A stretch of DNA of 64,000 bases, taken from contig CAIIXF020000006.1 in NCBI GenBank assembly GCA_903813345.2, forward strand, positions 1,240,001-1,304,000, given 5' to 3'. Under the pieces are notes generated by a model, which saw nothing but the letters and a program-made list of their open reading frames with translations, made no database searches and had not been told where the DNA came from. This document shows, one piece after another, positions 8,593 through 45,700 of this stretch; the stretch's first letter is position 1; each line of letters starts with the position of its first letter. The DNA comes from Owenia fusiformis. Lineage: Eukaryota; Annelida; Polychaeta; Sabellida; Oweniidae. The position numbers were made by a program, and so were the translations under genes.

Positions 8593-9271
8593 ACCATTGT
8601 TTTTGTTACTGTTTCTCCCAAACAAGTTTCTCCTCTGCTCCAAGTTGGAATGGAAGTGAAGTGATGGCTCAATTTTGGCAACTCAATTTTATTGCCTATT
8701 TGAGAAGAGCAGACGAGAAATTCGCTATTCGTTTATCGCATCGAAACCGCGAAATCAGTCCTGATATTACTTTACATCATGTTTGGCGTTGCATACACAT
8801 AAGCCATGTTTATATAATATCCTAAATCGTTGTGAAAATACGGCTAAAACTTTAGAAATGACGCATCCAAGGACACAGCAACCAATCGTTTATTTATGTG
8901 TTCTCGAGAAGTGACCTGTATTCTGAGAAATAGGGATGACGTCACTGAACTACATTATCGAATTCTAAGAAATCGGGCAGTCAAATGAATACGTCAGGTC
9001 AATCACTATGGTGATTCAGGATGAGCATGTCACAATAACCTCTCCGGCGAACGAATGGGTCAGTATGACCTGTATTTGCTACTTTTGACAGGCCACGTGC
9101 TCAAAACTTCCGGTGTAAACAAAAAGGTTACGGCCTTGACCTTAAAATAATTAATTTGAATAAGCGTTAGAAAGAAGTACATTTGACTGTGACTAAAGTT
9201 CAATATTTCTCGATTAGTCGACTTTATATCATACTAAAAATCTACAGATACCGCTTGTGAATACACCAAGC
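8593..9271. promoter_or_regulatory. Divergent promoter of FAM78 (-) and PLPP6 (+)
   Basis: This 679-bp interval separates the two start codons. It contains a CCAAT box at 8882-8886, a perfect CRE palindrome TGACGTCA at 8937-8944, an E-box CACGTG at 9094-9099 and an ETS-type ACTTCCGG at 9106-9113. No TATA box is obvious. Such a mix is typical of broadly active TATA-less bidirectional promoters; its use here is inferred. Confidence 0.6.
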
Positions 9272-11595
9272 ATGAGGAGGACTAATCAAGGACGCAATCA
9301 AAACTCTAAAAGTGAGGATATCAACGATGAAGATATGAGAAAATGTTCCAATGAAAAAGAACGTGGTGGAAGTGTACAGAATCAGTTTGGGGAGGTAAAG
9401 ATTAAAAGGTGGATTGGATCGAGTGGATTGGATTTATGTAAAAGGTGGATTGGATCGGGATTCTTCAAAATATGGATTTTCCTTAAAAAAATTATATTGA
9501 TCTCCCATCAAACGATTAATGCTCTTCTCACTTCCACAATGTCAAATAATAGATGTTATATCATTTTGCTTGGGTAGCCTAGAAAGGTGACCTGATACAC
9601 AATCTTATTCATTCCAAGGGTAATTTTAGACATTTCACAAATCATAAGGCAGACTTTTCAAGTCGAAGATCCATATCATCTGTTTTAAATTCAAACAGAA
9701 CATGGCAGAATGTCTTGGGAAGACCCACACATCAATTTGAATGACAGCTTTTATCTACCGATCTATGTTTATTATGTCTTACTAATGTTGATTTACAAGG
9801 GAGAGCAGTTAAATGCTTTAGAGTATCTATCAACTAATTGAAGTATGTATTTGTCATTGCTTTGTCAATTCTTAAAGGGACCCAAGTAATCACAAAATAC
9901 TTTAGGCCGGAGGAAATTGCTTAGAGGGAGATCAACTAAAAAATCCATATTTTGAAGATTCCCAATCCAATCCACCTTTTACATGAATCCAATCCACTCG
10001 ATCCAATCCACCTTTTAATCTCTACCTTTGGGGATGGAAATCAGTTTGGATTGTTAGTTTGGGACACAGAGCTAAGCAGAAATTTCGCTGTTTGTGCGGA
10101 TTCTGGCTCTAAATATGGTTATCTTAGACCAGTGATGAAATGCTTAGAGTATAGTGGACATGGAGTACCATGGATAGCTGGGACAATATTTGCAATTTTA
10201 GCCACTCATCAACTGAAGCTTCATGTCACACTAATTAACTTCCTTGCAGGTGAACACTTTATTGTAATAAGCTGATAATTGACATGATTTTTACGCAATT
10301 TGTTGAGTCAAGAGCTTGGGAGAGCGTACCTTAGTGGGGAATAATTGTGCAGGCGGATCTCACTTGTGAAATGTTCCAATTCAATTTCAATTTAACACAT
10401 GTTTTAACAGCAGCATTTAGATGAATATGGACTCTGATAAGGGGCTGTGTCAATATTTCAATGTCCGTCAAAACATAATTAATTAGGCTAGGGGGAGGAT
10501 ATTTAATTAGGGGACGTACATTGAGGTTTAGTTTACTAGGATTTTGTCTTCTGCAATTTCTGGTTTGACAGCCATGATATCATGATCATTAAAATATACG
10601 TTCAGAACTTCAGATATGTAGAAAGAGAATTTGAAATGTGTTGTTAACAGCAGTAGCAGATATTGTATGTTGTTGTGTTGTACGTACTTGTACACTGCAC
10701 GCAAATCAACATTTGACTCATTTACGCCACACATGGATTCCACATTTTGACTTTAGTTAGAAGGAGTAGAAGGGTTAAGACCTGCAAACTAAATTTATTA
10801 CATTTTTGATGGACATTGAAATATTGACTCAGCCCCTAAACCAGAATGCAATAACCATATGCAACAAATATTTTTGAATAATATTTTCATGTATTCATAT
10901 TTAGATGGCGCCTTGATCTATGTTATGTTATGTTATTTTATTTATTATCTACAAGATGAGTACATATACATAAATATGTTACAAAAATAAATATACGAAA
11001 AATACTACAAGTTATATGTATGTTAGATGAGCAAAATACTGATATGATCATAGCAGTACACTATCCATCATTCATTTAGGAATTCATATACCATTTATAC
11101 AGTGATTAAGCAAACGTACTTGCATTTCATGTTGCAAACTAAGGAATGAAATCAGACAATTTGAACAAATTTACAGGTTTCAAATGTTTTTATTATTGTA
11201 TTATTCCAGCCCTTTTTGTGGACCTCTTTATAGTCGGTGTATTGAAGGGCATTGTTCGTCGACCCAGGCCGACATACAACAAAAAAGAAGATATGATGAC
11301 AATAGCAACAGATGTATTTTCCTTTCCATCTGGGCATGCAGTGAGGGCCGTGTTCGTGACTATTTTCTTCATTTCATACCTTGGATTGCCGTTTTATTCA
11401 GCAATGGTAATGATGTTATGGTCAGGCTGCATCTGTCTTTCACGTATATTACTGGGACGGCATCATATCAGTGACGTTATATGTGGTGTCTTGATAGGCT
11501 ACCTAGAATTTATTTTACTTCAGTATTACTGGATCTCAGCGGACACATGTGACAAATATGTAGTTAGGCCAATCCAAGAGCATATCCATGTTTGA
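9272..11595 (+). CDS. PLPP6: PLPP6-like polyisoprenoid diphosphate phosphatase
   Basis: Coding exons 9272-9394, 10045-10249 and 11210-11595 join in frame to give 237 residues (human PLPP6 about 295). The PAP2 catalytic motifs are complete: K122-x6-RP130, PSGH at 149-152, and S187-R188-x5-H194-x3-D198. A block resembling human PLPP6 (RPVMKCLEYSGHGVPW) precedes the first membrane segment, and hydrophobic stretches cover about 70-120 and 155-220. Human PLPP6 hydrolyses presqualene and other isoprenoid diphosphates at the ER/nuclear membrane, so the same is inferred here. Vertebrate PLPP6 is intronless as I know it; here the first intron is almost entirely a transposon with an 8-bp target duplication (9394-10026). 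The ATG at 9272 is the first in frame after a likely 5' UTR; an earlier GTG was not used. Confidence 0.92.
9394..10026. mobile_element. Foldback transposon forming PLPP6 intron 1 (introner-like)
   Basis: The element is 633 bp and flanked by the direct repeat TTTGGGGA (9386-9393 and 10027-10034). Its TIRs run about 85 bp with roughly four mismatches, starting GGTAAAGATTAAAAGG on the left and GGTAGAGATTAAAAGG on the right (reverse complement). Each TIR contains AAAAGGTGGATTGGAT twice. Removing the element and one TSD restores an open, in-frame codon series across the site. The first bases of the element give the 5' splice site (G|GTAAAG at 9394-9396); the 3' splice site (AATCAG) is host exon sequence at 10044. 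The 8-bp TSD fits hAT, P or Merlin classes. Confidence 0.88.
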
Positions 11596-20700: not shown

Positions 20701-23700
20701 TGTAGTACATGTATATTGTTAAAGGATAAACTGTTACTATATTCAAATATCTCTTTTGGCACAAAACTCATTTTACATTCCAAATATTTTCCCAGTCAAT
20801 CATTAAATGCATAGGGATCCCTGGAAACACATGTCGGATTTAAAAACCAACTCAATATATTTATCTTGGCCAATAAAAGTAAATAATAAATAAATAATTA
20901 TGGGATAGAATTACTAGCAAAGTAAAGATTAGGATAGCATCAATAAATCGCTTTACTATAAAAATCACAATTCATCAATATTGCATGTTTCCTCTTCCTT
21001 AGCATCAATGACATTGTCAATGTCTTTGTCAATAGTACTATGTACATAAAATAAGGAACTTCAGCGTGTTTGACAAAATTATTCCAGAGTATGTATACAT
21101 AGATTTGACATATTTTTGTTCAATCCAGTAACTAGTGGTGTCAATTAACCGCTTGAGCATTAACCGGTTAACCGGGGGTTTTCACCGGTTAAAGTCGGTT
21201 AACCGGCGGGAAATTTGAACTGATAATTTCAAATGAAATCTTCAGCTTCGATCTTGAAAGTTGAAAAAAATTGGAAAAATGATATATCGGCGTTTATTTT
21301 CTACGTTCGTCAAGCTTTACTCTATTCTATGTAAGTAAGCGCGGGAAAGCAATGTGGCAGGGATTAAAGTTGCTGATTGGATGTTTGTAAGGAATTATCG
21401 GACCTATTACATGTATGAGTAGCTCACATGAAACTGACGCTTGAAAAACAAACCGATTAAAATGCAAAGTAAGCGCGGGAAAGCAATGTGGCAGGGATTA
21501 AAGTTGCTGATTGGATGTTTGTAATGCGTTATGGGACTTATGACATGTATGAGTAGCTTACGTGAAACTGACACCATAAAACCAAACGGATTAGCATGCA
21601 AAATAAGGGCGGGAAATAACAGAATTATACACGGTCAACTAACCGCCCATAAAAACACAGACCGGTCAAGGCATTATCGGCGGTTAACCGGTTAACCGGT
21701 TAATACTTGACACCTCTACCAGTAACTACTAATATAATGGTGAGAAAATTGTATTTTCAATGCTTTTGGCTGAGATTTTATAACAGAGCATTGATTTAAT
21801 GGTAATTGTGATTTGCCTAAATCTCAAACTCTTTGATGCTCTGTTTTAAAGACACTAACTTTTTGGAAGTGTGAATTCAGGAAAAAAAGAAACACATATA
21901 CTTAAAAAGAGCTTGCTTCAAGCCCCTTTGACTCCCCTAAATATTATGCAGTGTAGTTAGGGGGATCCAAAGACTTGGTCTGTGACTGGTGAAACATACA
22001 TAGATAGTAAAACTCTGAGATTCCGCGTTGATGCAGATAAATCGCAGAATTTGGGTTTTCAAAAATTTTGCAGAATTTGAATTTTTTGCATGGCATTTCA
22101 CAGAAAACATGATTTTTCCAGTCAAGCAACTCATCTCATCTTTGTCACTCACCTTGACACTTTAGACAGTCATTTGTCACTAGAAACTGGTGTTATGAGG
22201 ATTTTCGAATGGAAAAAGTGAAATCTGTTTAAAATTCTCAAACTTCTGGCTTTTGCACTTGAAGGCTACGTCTAATATGTAACGAAATTTGAATTCCCTG
22301 CAATTTTTCTCATGCAGAAAACTAGGATGTGTGAACATATGAGACGGTGCATTAGTGTTTACTTACTGCTCTGCAAGTGAGTGGAAGACCAGCTGCATCT
22401 TTCTCATCTGGATCTACCATACCAAGCTGGACAGCCAGCTCACGGCTGGGGTCTGCAATGATTGGGTATGGGAAACCTTCTTCATTTTTCACATAGGATT
22501 TTATGTCCTGAAAAGTAACATGTGCTCTGTTATACGTGTTTTCAAATGATTCGAGTAAGGGCACATTATTGTAGTCAATGATATTGGACATATATGGTGT
22601 TTCAAAGTTGCTTTGCAACAGAAAAGGAGGACTCCAAGTGGTGGTGTCAAAGTGGGGATATCATGAATTCCGTATCCTTCAAGTAGAAGAATACAGGATC
22701 ACATCGGTCAATCATATTTCAACATCATTGAATAAGAGATGGTGTCAACAGTCATGAAAAAACGAAGTTAATTTCATTATGGTTTGCCCACTTTGCTCGT
22801 AAAATGAAATTTTGAAATGTTGATTTGTCCTTCAATTGAATTTTATGAATATCAACATTCTTCTATAACAAAATCTTTAACCCCCAAATAAAATTAACTT
22901 TGTAATTCCACAACTGGTGATAATTAGACACTATCCCTTCATGTGTATGCTTCTCATGGTTGGACATGGAGGTGGACGAACGTATAATCACAGCCCTACA
23001 GATTCAGGAAAAATACGATACCCTCTGGGAAATATTAATTACTAGACGAGATACAACAAAAAGAGTGACAACAACAGGTGAAATTTTTCAAAATTCTAAT
23101 TCTAACTTGATAATTCATGTACAGTAAAACCTGTCATAGTAGAACACCTTTGGCTTCTCTAAAAGTGTTCTACATGGTTGGTGTTCCACTTATAGGGGTT
23201 CATTTAATATTTATTCAGTTGGTCTTGGGAAAGTGTTCCACTTAGAGAGATGTTCTACTTTACAGGTTTCACTGTAGTTGCAAAATTATTCTAAACAGGT
23301 ATTTATTCTGCAATTAATAAGAAAACATGCCAGAAATAGAGGGGACTTTTCTGTATATTCTGCCATGTTTTGTACATGGGAAACCACTTGAAACAAGATA
23401 TGTGTAGAATCTATTTCTGAAAAAGTGTTACGTTTCCCTTACCTCTGCCCATCCCTTGTGGCTCTCTACATCGTCACATGAGAGAGCAGCAAGTTTCACT
23501 CCACGTTTCTTAAACTCTGGCACGAGCTGAACAACACGTCCTAACTCTGTGGTACACACAGGGGTGTAGTCAGCAGGGTGAGAGAACAAGATAGCCCACC
23601 TGGAATAATAATACATGATTAATAAGTGGTTATAGTCATGACACATGCATATAACCAACTTTCATTTGGGGCGGGGGGGTTCAAATTTCTATATGCTAGA

Positions 23701-32700: not shown

Positions 32701-34960
32701 GAAGTATCTTCTTTTCCAGGGCCTTCTTCAATTTTTGAATTTTAGCCCTTGGTCCCATATTTGGACATTTGGTATGGCATTGGTCCTACATTTTAACATT
32801 TGGTATGGCATTGGTCCCATAATTGGGCATTTTGTATGGCATTGGTCCTATATTTGGACATTTGGTATGGCATTGGTCCTATATTTGGACATTTGGTATG
32901 GCCTTTGGGCGTTATTTTGGTTGGTATGGGAACATATTGAAATTTGACAGATTGGTATGGGAACATATTGATATTTGAGGCTTCAGCCTAGGACCCCCGT
33001 CGAGTTTTATATACAGGGGGGGGGGTGTAAGAGACAGTAGAGACCAAAAGTAAGCCGCGGATCTCATTATTCATGTTTTAAAAGTAACTTTTATTCAGCT
33101 GTCCAAGTGTGCCGTGGGAAAGCTATTACATCAAAATCCACATAGCTTTCGCAGGAAGTAAGTATTCTGGATTTTGAAGCCCTGTGAGGATGTGACCTGG
33201 GTCAGCATTGGTAAGATTATAGCCACATGGGTTTATTTACAAACAAGAGCTTAAAACATGTGGTCACAAATTATTTGAAAAAAAACACAGGTTGATTTGA
33301 AGCATTCAGCTTCAATAATTGCAAGCTACAGTTGACAGGTGGATTTGCTGAAGTGAGGATTTCCCATGTTAAAAATAAGAGAATTTACAAGAGGCCATAA
33401 ATCAGTGGATGCGATTATACAAAATGTAAAATATACAAATTTTAAGGGATATGTATCTAGACAATATTGGAAATTATGGGCTTTCAGACCACCATAATTA
33501 GGAAATGGTGATCGAAAATCGACCTGTCATTTATTTTTGTCCCCAACTGTAAAGCTGAACCTGATAATTGAAAAGTTATAAAAGTTTACCTTCTTCTAAG
33601 GCCCGGGGGGTTCACTATATATAAACCTTGACAGGGATCCTCGGCGCATGTGGGGTACCTTTTTCAACGTTTGTATGGCAATGGACCCATATTTTAGGAT
33701 TTGGTATGGGAATGCCCGGAAATTTTTGACTTCCGAGGTACATGTATGGCAATGGTTGGACTTTTGCTCTTCTGGTATGAGTAATTAGAATGGTCGTTGT
33801 AGATATGTTACCTAAAATTCGTGGTATGGCATTGGTCCAGTAGCTTAAATTTGTATGACATTGATTCTATATTTCATTTACTTTGAATTAAGGTATGGCA
33901 TTGGTCCCATATTTGGACATTTGGTATGGCGTTGGTCCTACATTTTGACATTTGGTATGGTATTGGTCCCATAATTGGGCATTTGGTATGGCATTGGTCC
34001 TATATTTGGACATTTGGTATGGCATTGGTCCTATATTTGGACATTTGGTATGGCATTGGTCCTATCATGGGCTTTCAACTAGCTAGTTGAAAGCCCATGG
34101 TCCTATATTTGGACATTTGGTATGGCCTTTGGTTATCGCATCCTACGACCCCTTTAGATTGTGGTCGTAGGCCCGTTTCATTCGTAAGCCTGTCTTTCTA
34201 CAATGTCGGAGAATGAACTACGCATTGCGCTATTAAATGACCTACCTCGATACATTCCAGAGTATTTTAAAATTCTTTTTATGTTGTTAAATCGCCAATT
34301 GTATGGGTTTATCGTCAGAACGAAGAGATTTTAGTTTTTACATCGGAGATATCTCAGCAATTTTCAAAATGTCGGAAGGGGAATTCCCCAGGGATTTCCC
34401 TTATGACTGGTGCATGCCGGGAACTGAATGGAGGAATTTGACGGTTGAACCTACACGCAAATATTGCTATCAAAAACGAAAATATCTTCGTTCTGCCGAT
34501 AAACCCATACAATTTGCGATTCAACTATATGAAAAGAATTCTAAAATACTCAGGAATGTATCGAGGTAGGTCATTTATGTGTGCAATGCATAGTTCATTC
34601 TCCGACATTGTAGAAACACAGGCTTACTAATGAATCGGGCCTACGACCACAATCTAAAGGGGTCGTAGGATGCGATAAGCCTTTGGGCGTTATTTTGGTT
34701 GGTATGGGAACATATTGAAATTTGACAGATTGGTATGGGAACATATTGATATTTGAGGCTTCAGCCTAGGACCCCCGTCGAGTTTTATATACACTGAACC
34801 CCCCGGGTTCTAAGGCCACTGTATTGGCTAGAGACTCGAGTAAATAAAAGTAAACTAAAAAGTTGGCTTACGAGTCTCCGACAAAATCGTAGAACTGCAT
34901 TTCACCGGCAGTTGTCTGCGCTTTGAAGTTTGGGAACGCATCTCCGAGGTTGATACCCAT
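17778..34960 (-). CDS. PRDX6: Peroxiredoxin 6 (1-Cys Prx), 6 coding exons
   Basis: Coding exons on minus are 34960-34872, 23599-23443, 22507-22367, 20481-20408, 18841-18769 and 17906-17778. All have GT-AG borders and matching phases, giving 220 residues (human 224). The protein reduces H2O2 and lipid hydroperoxides; the peroxidatic cysteine is C45 in PVCTTE, with the conserved H37. The C-terminal Prx6 extension is present (ATPVDWK, LFPKGV, LPSGK-like [10 protein letters not shown]). In human PRDX6 the phospholipase A2 site uses H26, S32 and D140. Here the Ser (S30) and Asp (D136) positions are kept but the His position is Y24, and the GDSWG motif is GDSWA, so phospholipase activity may be lost. 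Intron 1 is 11.3 kb and packed with foldback elements; introns 2-5 are 0.9-1.9 kb. Identity is not in doubt. Confidence 0.97.
18071..18259. mobile_element. TA-flanked MITE (CAGTAAAACCT ends), copy 1
   Basis: Lies in PRDX6 intron 5. The left end CAGTAAAACCTATG is matched by a decayed right end. The interior shares GAACACCTTTGG and AGGTTCATTTA-type blocks with the better preserved copy at 23122-23274. Confidence 0.6.
18420..18648. mobile_element. Tc1/mariner-like MITE, 229 bp
   Basis: The ends CAGGGTGTCAAATAAATATG and CATATTTATTTGACACCCTG are perfect inverted copies. TA flanks both sides (18418-18419 and 18649-18650). In PRDX6 intron 5, close to exon 5. No coding sequence. Confidence 0.85.
21133..21718. 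mobile_element. hAT-like element with AACCGGTT arrays, 586 bp
   Basis: The TSD CCAGTAAC is at 21125-21132 and 21719-21726. Termini are TAGTGGTGTCAATTAACCG and, reversed, TAGAGGTGTCAAGTATTAAC. Sub-terminal regions carry multiple AACCGG/CCGGTT words, including AACCGGTTAACCGGTTAA at the right. The middle contains a direct duplication of about 130 bp, each unit starting near GTAAGCGCGGGAAAGCAATG. It lies in PRDX6 intron 3. Confidence 0.87.
23122..23274. mobile_element. TA-flanked MITE (CAGTAAAACCTG ends), copy 2
   Basis: Begins CAGTAAAACCTGTCA and ends ACAGGTTTCACTG, with TA at 23120-23121 and 23275-23276. It is 153 bp, in PRDX6 intron 2. The ends fit Tc1/mariner-type non-autonomous elements. 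Confidence 0.8.
23683..25817. other. PRDX6 intron 1, proximal part, nothing recognisable
   Basis: AT-rich intronic DNA between exon 2 and the 1-kb palindrome. I see no exon, no long inverted repeat and no tandem repeat. Confidence 0.5.
25823..26822. mobile_element. 1-kb near-perfect palindromic element (CAC...GTG)
   Basis: The TSD is AATAA (25818-25822 and 26823-26827). Termini are CACGGGGTACCATCG and CGATGGTACCCCGTG. The two arms are nearly 470 bp each with few mismatches, around a centre of about 60 bp near 26310. The small reading frames in the two arms are the same sequence in mirror image. Located in PRDX6 intron 1, so the pre-mRNA would fold into a long hairpin. Confidence 0.87.
28291..30195. 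mobile_element. hAT-like element, 1.9 kb, in PRDX6 intron 1
   Basis: TSD ATGCCCTT (28283-28290 and 30196-30203). Ends CAGACCCTAAGATTC and GAATCTTAGGGTCTG are inverted copies. It contains R4 copy 2 (about 28758-29600). No transposase frame is visible, so it is non-autonomous or an eroded autonomous copy. Confidence 0.8.
31340..31747. mobile_element. 408-bp CAC...GTG foldback MITE, copy 1
   Basis: TSD TCTAC (31335-31339 and 31748-31752). Ends CACGCGGTCCTAACTTCG and CGAAGTTAGGACCGCGTG, with inverted arms continuing inward including AATCAAGGATTGCGAGTC. The centre is an inverted pair around GTCCCCAGCTG. A second copy of exactly the same length is at 51153-51560. Lies in PRDX6 intron 1. Confidence 0.88.
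32060..33065. mobile_element. Foldback element hosting a nested 31-bp-repeat element
   Basis: GATCCGCGGCTTAC at 32060 is inverted at the right end (GTAAGCCGCGGATC, to about 33063). Internal inverted blocks such as GGAGCGCTGAAG and ACATTCACTCGA pair across 32125-32395. The minisatellite-bearing element at 32429-33025 is inserted inside it. No clear target duplication was found for the outer element. Confidence 0.6.
32429..33025. mobile_element. GGTATGGCATTGGTCC-repeat element, copy 1
   Basis: Starts CCCGGGGGGTTCACTATATA; the right part reads CCCCCGTCGAGTTTTATATA and ends in a run of G. Flanks TGTAAGAC and TGTAAGAG match at 7 of 8 bases. The interior is a decayed minisatellite with unit near TGGTATGGCATTGGTCCTAT followed by ATTTGGACATT. 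The fuller copy is at 33602-34807. Confidence 0.7.
34066..34098. mobile_element. 33-bp palindromic insert with 8-bp TSD, example 1
   Basis: CATGGGCTTTCAACTAG and its complement form a 32-bp perfect palindrome plus one base. It interrupts a minisatellite unit and duplicates GGTCCTAT on both sides (34058-34065 and 34099-34106). The neighbouring uninterrupted units show the empty site. Confidence 0.8.
34133..34678. mobile_element. Nested foldback element, 546 bp, 8-bp TSD
   Basis: TSD GCCTTTGG (34125-34132 and 34679-34686). Ends TTATCGCATCCTACGACC and GGTCGTAGGATGCGATAA are perfect inverted copies, and the inverted similarity continues for over 100 bp. The restored host reads through the repeat element at 33602-34807, proving later insertion. 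The reading frames inside are not recognisable. Confidence 0.88.
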
Positions 34961-42766: not shown

Positions 42767-45700
42767 ATGGTGATGTCTGTTTTTGCTCTTTTGTTATATA
42801 CAGGTGAGTGATACAGTACGACAGATTACAGCCAGACTGCGGAAAATAGAATTAATTTGCAAGGCACAGCTGGTTGAACAATATGCGAGAAGTAACAACC
42901 TTGCTTGTTCATGTCCTCCATTACCACCCTGGGTATAGTCTGTCACGTGACTTCATGGATGACGTGTGCGCGAGTGATTCGCATTTTATTTCGCTTGAGG
43001 TTTGTAATCACACTTTTTACATGTTTTAAGATTTTGTATCTCTGTGAAACTTGTCCCGTACCATCAATGTCTGAAGACGATCTAATTCACCAAATATCTC
43101 ATCCAAGCGTGTCCCGGTTAAAGAGAAATTCGCACTTTTGTGTCTCGCAAAATGACGTGTGCGCGAGTAAATCGAATTTTACGAAGGATGGGTGCGCGAG
43201 TCTAAAATATTTTTATTCACTTGAGACAATTCTGCAAGCTAAGGCAGAATTCAACTCACGTGACATTTGTTTTTGTCATCTTAAAGTAGTATGTTAAAGA
43301 ATAGTTTGCTATTTTGTAGATGTTTCATGTATGGCACATACATACATGTCTACGTTTAATGACAATAAATGTTTTGAAATAGCTTGTAGGGCTGTCCGGC
43401 ATTGCAGGTGAATTAAAATTTGAACCAAAAATTGAATTAAATTTTTGGCGGTCTCATAAAACCGGCAGCATATTCATTTATTGACATCCCATACAAGGGG
43501 GGGGGGGTTAGAGTTGTTATGTGGTTACTCGGCATCCGCCACGATCAGAACCATGTAAGGAATAGTAAGGGGAAGCCCATGATACCAAGTAATATCAAAT
43601 AATTATAGCAGCTTCTAACTTCTTCCGCATCCCCACCCTTGGTATACGCAGCTGACAAAATGGATCGGTACGGGTCAAAAGCTGGACCGGTACGGGTTAA
43701 CGGTTTTATTTGAATTTAAAACAGCTATAACTTGCTCAATATTGACTTCTTCGTATCTAAGTTGAAATATATGATCCCTCCGAATGAATTTAAGTACCCC
43801 CAAAGTTCACCCGTACAGGTCCAGCTTTTGACCCATACCGGTCCATTTCGTCAGCTGCGTATACCAAGGGTGATCCCACATACTTTGTTTTTACAGACTC
43901 AGAAATCAATGTTCGCTATAAATGTAGCAATATAATATGAGCTTTCGTGTACTCAGATCCTCCATTTGTAAAAAAACAATTGAAGAACAGCATAATAGAA
44001 AGTCAAATACAAAATTGATTTGCGCCCAAAATAGTTTGGGTAATGATTCCCGTCACTACCATGCATTTGTCCCCAAAGCAAGGTATTCTGATGGGTAAAA
44101 TCTTGATACCTCCCCCTCCCCTACTAAAAATGATTTGAATTTGGTTTAAAAATATATACCCCAAGAACACTTTAAGGTATCATAAATTATTGAGGTAGTT
44201 ATTAGTTAGAAAACACCGTGCCCTTATAGTATTTATTACAATTCTAGAACAATTTCATGAAACGACTCATAAGGAAATTGTTTTTGTAACTGTTTATACA
44301 TTTCACTTGTTATTATTAGTTTCAGGTATTTAATATGGATAGCCCAAGCACGAGTGGTTTAGAAACTACTGTCAGAAGTCTAGATGGGCTCTCTTTTTAC
44401 ATTTGCTTTAGCCTCTGGGGTACATAGCATAGTTTTCTTTGTAATGTGGTCGTGTGGACTATCATGTTCAGCTTTAATCAATTTTATTTTGTTGTTTATT
44501 GAATCAATCTGGATTCTTTCGTTTGATAGTTCTTTTTCGAATGGAATGAAGCCATACCGTTTAGACATGTATGACATAAAACCATTTTCGTGGTTTAAAA
44601 CTCTTACATAAAAACGAAATTCGTCATACTTATGTTCTTCCCAGGTATGAAGGGCTACACCCTCTAGGCCTTCGAACCTTTGAGTTCCTGGTGGACAGTG
44701 GTAGCAGGCGTACATATTTCGTGCAAAGGGAGAAAGGTATGCTTTTCATATGTTATTAAATCACCTTGTAACAAAATCAATATTGTGTCTAGCTTGCAGA
44801 ATTGTTTAAAATGAATATAAATATGTTAGACTCGCGCACCCATCCTTCGTAAAATTCGATTTACTCGCGCACACGTCATTTTGCGAGACACAAAAGTGCG
44901 AATTTCTCTTTAACCGGGACACGCTTGGATGAGATATTTGGTGAATTAGATCGTCTTCAGACATTGATGGTACGGGACAAGTTTCACAGAGATACAAAAT
45001 CTTAAAACATGTAAAAAGTGTGATTATAAACCTCAAGCGAAAGAAAATGCGAATCACTCGCGCACACGTCATCCATGAAGTCACGTGACAGACTATACCC
45101 AGGGTGATTACTCTTTGTAGGAATACTAACAACGGGTTTTGTTTCTGGACAATTCACTTGTCCCGGAACAGTAGATGACAATTACCCCAACCCTAACTCA
45201 TGCAGATCCTACTGGAGATGTAGGAACAATATAGCTACTCTTGTAACATGTCCCACTAATAGTGATTCAGGTCCGCAACATTTCGATCCTAACCGAAAGC
45301 TATATGTGATTTGGCGTATAGAGCTGGATGCATTAGTAAGAAACTATTCTCAATTTCGTCTTTGGTCTTTGGGCATTATTGTAAAAATGCGATAGAACTA
45401 GAAGGAATATTTTGAAATTATGACAACTCGTCTTTTCTTCTGTTTGGTGCCATGAATATCTCGTGTTGTTCATTATCATTAACTTGTGAATCTTCATTGC
45501 TGCACATACTTAGATACTGCGTGTCAACGGCATGTGACATCCATAGGGACGCGAACATATGTAAACACACGAGGAGCCGCGGCGAGAGACGGAGCTTGGA
45601 TGACCGACCAAGTACCCATTGATGAATCATCTGTGTCAAAAATTTGGATTTTTGAAGGAACAAGGTTAAACAATAAAACAACTATTGAATTAAATAAAAG

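Follow-up and report, generated by a model that had tools for sequence, protein, structure and literature searches.

Transposons that are spliced out of the exons into which they inserted are known from Tc1 in C. elegans and from Ds in maize, where the splicing was shown by cDNA. The locus described here, from the annelid Owenia fusiformis, is alike in that a transposon lies in an exon with splice sites, here candidate ones, at or beside its ends, and differs in that Tc1 and Ds are of other superfamilies. For single intron gains by transposon insertion, a review counts 35 events, which come from Oryza, Drosophila, Oikopleura and Zea and are given there as indirect evidence, without in vivo demonstration (PMC3443670). 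Those events likewise start from a transposon inside an exon and use splice sites that the element carries or that become active nearby, with precise or nearly precise removal, whereas the present case is known from one genome sequence, and in an annelid.

Introners share with the element described here the build of a DNA transposon, with terminal inverted repeats (TIRs) and a target site duplication (TSD), and introners that carry the donor and borrow the acceptor are described in the available text of PMC9860276, which also states that a large survey found introners, among animals and land plants, in two groups only, both of them animals. Of two other papers, one mentions introner transposons for the tunicate Fritillaria (PMC13326754) and the other, in its introner text, concerns a bdelloid rotifer gene (PMC10597677). 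A search of open-licence papers on introners and annelids gave no annelid case, and the available text of the Owenia methylome paper (PMC11292947) names neither MITEs nor Merlin, and neither intron gain nor DNA transposons. Introners are known by many intron copies in genes (PMC9860276, available text), whereas one in 113 TSD-verified copies of the element studied here lies in a recognised host exon, with candidate splicing. We read this insertion as one candidate transposon-made intron, an event of a known kind.

A PLPP6-like gene with a transposon in its first coding exon

The analysed window (64,000 nucleotides, C6:1240001-1304000 in a 498-Mb assembly of 525 contigs; all positions below are those of the window unless a contig is named) carries on its plus strand a gene that we take to be PLPP6-like, from its resemblance to vertebrate PLPP6. 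The 5' part of its interrupted coding exon, recognised by translation within an open frame at 9218-9577, extends from the ATG at 9272 to 9393, encodes the N-terminus and includes the left TSD. The remainder of this exon (10035-10249), where the PLPP6-like region begins, was assigned by translation, an NCBIfam match and a protein match in the genome; it is followed by a second, ordinary-looking intron at 10250-11209 (CAG|GTGAAC ... TTCCAG|CCC, by splice-site reading) and by the last coding exon at 11210-11595, which holds the PAP2 region and the stop (PF01569 match and protein match in the genome). The first-pass annotation describes vertebrate PLPP6 as intronless; the present gene has this second intron in any case. 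Removing the element and one TSD, and joining the next exon, gave a frame of 723 nt from ATG 9272 (240 codons and a stop), and reading through the element gave 101 codons before a stop within it; both the uninterrupted empty-site frame and the closure of the frame inside the element had been claimed in the first-pass annotation, and both were borne out.

The PAP2 domain was recognised by Pfam (PF01569, E=3e-23, residues 61-170 of a 176-residue query), and the NCBIfam model NF047884 matched from residue 67 of the joined protein (E=3.7e-11, 43 bits compared with a model cut-off of 250). In a 125-residue peptide around the insertion Pfam recognised nothing up to E=0.1, and the PDB matches, which were weak, were bacterial PAP2 phosphatases (best E=7.8e-6). 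The upstream codons of the interrupted exon found no support in codon usage, nor did the known PLPP6 exons. The interrupted exon was taken as coding on account of its open frame, its continuity with the PAP2 exon, the sub-cut-off NF047884 match and the resemblance to vertebrate PLPP6. When the assembly was searched with the protein, four candidates were scored and this gene alone was returned, with its two exons; the PLPP6-like gene has no second copy in the assembly.

Into this exon a 633-bp copy from a young family of non-autonomous DNA transposons (MITEs) has inserted, at 9394-10026 on the plus strand and flanked by an 8-bp duplication. The inverted arms (9393-9480 and 9940-10027) are 88 nt long and 95% complementary. 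Within them, inverted-repeat comparison and the genome copies delimit the left TIR to 9394-9480, with the tip GGTAAAGATTAAAAGG, and the right TIR to 9940-10026, ending in CCTTTTAATCTCTACC, which holds a possible branch site and a pyrimidine tract. The two TSD copies, TTTGGGGA at 9386-9393 and at 10027-10034, match exactly over 8 bp, and the listing of open frames gave no long frame for the element. The 633-bp length, the TIRs of about 85 bp and the 8-bp TSD on both sides agree with what had been noticed from the letters alone.

Genome-wide copies of the MITE family

A DNA search of the assembly, in which 40 of 324 candidates were scored, returned related copies that were 85-100% identical and nearly all full-length. 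The 33-nt TIR tip, with at most one mismatch, occurred at 326 ends (167 forward and 159 reverse), and the reversed pattern at 0. We examined 132 loci, a non-random sample made up of the best matches to three query copies and of the places on the first contigs listed; both ends were recovered at 123 of these loci and not at the other 9. The TSD was 8/8 in 106 of these 123 paired copies, 7/8 in 6, 6/8 in 1 and lower in 10, so that 112 of the 132 loci had a TSD of 7/8 or 8/8; L140 and L141 were left out of the family copy and TSD counts. The excess of TIR ends over the reversed pattern, together with the perfect TSD in 106 of 123 paired copies, indicates that the repeat is not due to chance.

Flanking sequence was shared by L030, L031 and L033 (partly also L034) and by L072, L104, L105 and L111, leaving 107 or 108 independent insertions among the 113 copies with a TSD of 6/8 or better. 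Within each of the groups L072/L104/L105/L111 and L030/L031/L033 the TSD and the flanks are common, and these copies probably spread within a larger duplicated repeat. The 8-bp TSD was confirmed by two natural empty sites: in L141 (C6:32320097-32321390) a copy is nested in another copy with an exact 8-bp duplication, and L142, a second copy of the ORF hit in L106, is 95% identical to it and lacks the element. In a separate case, a palindromic-looking insert, about 600 bp long and likely another element nested within, lies in the 1,252-bp family copy at L061 (201-1452 of that locus).

With its TIRs, its TSD of constant length, its many near-identical short copies and a PLPP6 copy devoid of a long frame, the family has the characteristics of a MITE. 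Duplications of 8 bp are made by Merlin, hAT and similar superfamilies, and the MITEs of these superfamilies resemble the present family in the 8-bp TSD, the TIRs, the short length and the absence of a long frame. In the search for an autonomous partner, the genome gave four matches to the Merlin-type transposase profile (PF12762, DDE_Tnp_IS1595; E 4.8e-6 to 9.8e-4), and the family TIR tip was absent from the 3-kb locus of each. At L078, where a TIR stands alone, 6 kb of sequence contained no second TIR (the best other match had 14 mismatches of 30), and no frame in these 6 kb was recognisable by eye as a transposase.

Candidate splice sites around the insertion

The tip of the left TIR reads, together with the end of the TSD before it, as a candidate 5' splice site (GAG|GTAAAG, 9395-9400, plus strand), and the first AG past the element, a CAG in host sequence 18 nt beyond its end, as a candidate 3' splice site (AATCAG|TTT, 10043-10044, plus strand); the former was evaluated by a frame test and a donor score, the latter by the frame test and a pyrimidine count. 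GT-AG removal of 9395-10044 would preserve the frame at the cost of Asp-Gly-Asn-Gln, with one new Glu, and translation upheld the earlier claim of a frame-keeping splice that costs four codons. We combined the 29 GT and 36 AG sites around the element (1,044 combinations, those under 50 nt skipped), and found that the frame was kept in 27 of the tested combinations, while two further ones use the older donor 9312. The pair 9395-10044 brings together the element's own donor and the nearest AG past its end, and there is no AG between the branch-like motif of the TIR and 10044. As judged from these motifs, the TIR donor and the host acceptor are a natural GT-AG pair of candidate sites.

Donors were scored with a general splice-donor table. 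On this table the TIR donor scored 2.58, among the top 2.4% of the 6,782 GT sites in the window, both strands counted, compared with 3.42 for the donor of the second intron at 10250; three GT sites between 9272 and 10250 outscore it (9312, 9587 and 10250), and its A at +5 is off the consensus. The acceptor at 10044 has 7 pyrimidines in the 17 adjacent positions, the mean for the plus-strand AGs of the window being 8.35 and the value for the second intron 12; the TIR tract CCTTTTAATCTCTACCTTT sits just 5' of it. As RNA the element is predicted to form a single long hairpin in whose base the donor is paired (-239 kcal/mol; z -17 relative to 20 shuffles), and such a hairpin could help splicing by bringing the ends together or hinder it by hiding the donor. 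A skip from the interrupted exon to the last one was rejected for its mismatched phases (the TIR donor lies at a codon boundary and the last exon is in phase 1).

Splice-like ends and exon survey of the family

The splice-like character of the ends is a property of the family. Among the 112 copies whose TSD is at least 7/8, GGTARAG was present at 215 of 224 ends and TTTTAATCT at 211 of the 224 opposite ends; by these motifs, nearly every copy, in either orientation, carries a donor-like site, a branch-like site and pyrimidines, and no AG. For 185 of the 224 ends the first AG came within 40 nt, and for 53 of these 185 its distance was a multiple of three. The ends from which the element would be removable in frame numbered 43 to 53 of 224, corresponding to about one in five to one in four exon insertions. 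As frame compatibility is expected in about a quarter of exon insertions, it proves nothing alone for the PLPP6 copy.

The exon survey covered 113 copies (TSD 6/8 or better), for which the frames crossing the empty site were listed and assessed by ORF length, Pfam and eye. The Pfam scan took in 19 of the 113 copies, with 19 junction ORFs; among the frames of at least 100 residues it left out that of L121 and the low-complexity one of L019. A recognised host coding exon was found at one copy of the 113, that in the PLPP6-like gene, in a survey that could miss exons without a Pfam match. Long frames were taken as real ORFs at six copies (PLPP6, L002, L082, L058, L123 and L106). Besides PLPP6, these comprise four retroelement-like ORFs, two by Pfam (L002, RVT_1, 1.3e-21; L082, zf-RVT, 0.019, below the cut-off) and two that are reverse-transcriptase-like by eye and have no Pfam match (L058 and L123), and the ORF at L106, of which the genome has one further copy (zinc-finger-like by eye, with two weak sub-cut-off Pfam matches). 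The first AG past the element is in frame for PLPP6, L002 and L082, out of frame for L106 and L123, and absent within 60 nt for L058.

Pieces of NUDIX- and SRCR-like exons, below the Pfam cut-offs, lie beside the element at L007 and L027, and we read them as exons next to an intronic copy. L124 was considered as a second exon insertion and judged by eye to be an intronic copy, since a normal donor closes the exon 21 bases ahead of the element. Within the stretch 102-252 of that locus, the exon occupies 102-230 and is followed by the donor AAAG|GTAGGT, with the copy 21 bases into the intron, and the TSD overlaps a GGTGAAGA repeat. A coding survey by codon usage was discarded, as it ranked a wrong frame best for PLPP6 and did not include L002, L082 or L123 among the 25 best listed.

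Owenia fusiformis has 26,966 genes, according to the available text of PMC9977687. At an assumed 1.3 kb per gene, coding sequence would amount to about 7% of the genome, and random insertion would place about eight of the 113 copies in host exons, compared with the one recognised. This difference, from a survey that could miss exons without a Pfam match, points to an ordinary MITE largely absent from exons rather than to an introner family. The suggestion in the first-pass annotation that this might be an animal introner family was consequently not supported, one copy of 113 being in a host exon and five more in mostly retroelement-like ORFs; the genome-wide search for the TIR that was proposed with it was productive (326 ends), and counting copies in exons gave one recognised host exon among 113. 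Introners are characterised by many copies forming introns in coding exons, and no such set of copies was found among the 113. There is a small chance that the PLPP6 copy is the first visible intron of an incipient annelid introner family, whose ends would suit this role in their palindromic TIR, their G|GTARAG start, their TTTTAATCTYTACC end and the absence of an AG.

A candidate intron gain and its alternatives

Our preferred reading, to which we give somewhat less than an even chance, is that the PLPP6 copy of the MITE is a candidate intron gained by transposon insertion, its splice sites being candidates recognised from the letters. The earlier claim of a recent transposon-derived intron stands as regards the young DNA transposon in a coding exon and a natural GT-AG pair, while the splicing itself is plausible but unproven and the acceptor weak. 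Compared with the consensus of 14 near copies (itself included), which span 0.16-1.42% from it, the PLPP6 copy has five substitutions and one indel (0.79%), and four of the five substitutions are private among 20 aligned copies. This divergence and these private substitutions indicate that the insertion is probably not a brand-new lesion, although part of the private changes could predate it.

The element might instead be kept in the transcript, as a damaging or neutral allele of the assembled haplotype that yields a truncated product of 101 codons, with the empty site present on other haplotypes. Both the read-through frame that ends within the element and the weak acceptor at 10044 would fit such an allele, and the small distances of the near copies from their consensus suggest that some insertions of the family may still be polymorphic; however, the 0.79% divergence of the PLPP6 copy suggests persistence for some time, and the host gene is without a second copy in the assembly and otherwise has an open frame. 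We consider this account unlikely, while according it appreciable weight. It is quite unlikely, in our judgement, that transcription or translation starts 3' of the insertion, with the in-frame ATG at 10135 in use, with a shortened PAP2 protein as the product and the element merely in the 5' flank or UTR. This ATG has a G at -3, the Pfam PAP2 match falls 3' of it, and the upstream codons have neither codon-usage support nor a family match, but a start there would lose about 28 residues before the Met that are similar to vertebrate PLPP6, and the empty-site frame is open up to the ATG at 9272, which has an A at -3.

Other splice sites may also serve to remove the element, namely donor 9312 joined to 10057 or 10069, or the TIR donor joined to 10071 or to 9957, the last of which would exonise the right TIR. 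All of these pairs preserve the frame, donor 9312 (AAA|GTGAGG) scores 3.8 against 2.58 for the TIR donor on the same donor table, and the acceptors 9957, 10057, 10069 and 10071 have 8 of 17 pyrimidines each, one above 10044. Yet donor 9312 must have gone unused before the insertion if the exon was continuous, and the base at -3 is A at 9957 and G at 10071, compared with C at 10044, which is the base generally preferred there; we regard these pairs as improbable.

Under the preferred reading of an intron gained by insertion, the insertion would be tolerated most likely because a good share of the transcripts splice the element out. U1 would take the GGTAAAG tip of the left TIR, read as GAG|GTAAAG after a TSD that ends in A, the right TIR end CCTTTTAATCTCTACC would provide the branch site and the pyrimidine tract, and the first AG 3' of the element, in host sequence at 10044, would act as the acceptor. 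The protein would stay in frame and lose three residues in length, and the two ends of the element may be drawn together by the long TIR hairpin. The outcome would be one intron gained by transposon insertion, and not the product of an introner family. If spliced, the copy would represent the birth of an intron in an animal gene, in a single step that can be dated, with the element, the duplicated target and many sister copies still readable. It would then allow testing which features of transposon ends let a gene survive an exon insertion and what degree of weak splicing is tolerable in a conserved gene.

Other features of the window

A second pair of inverted arms (42925-43241 and 44790-45106; 317 nt, 98% complementary, 1,548 nt apart) encloses a minus-strand ORF that is zinc-finger-like by eye (44380-44745), and the unit is probably another mobile element. 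Minus-strand exons at 22355-22660, 23440-23562 and 34871-34960, which we take to be peroxiredoxin-6-like from their similarity, lie at two places about 11 kb apart and are perhaps paralogues.
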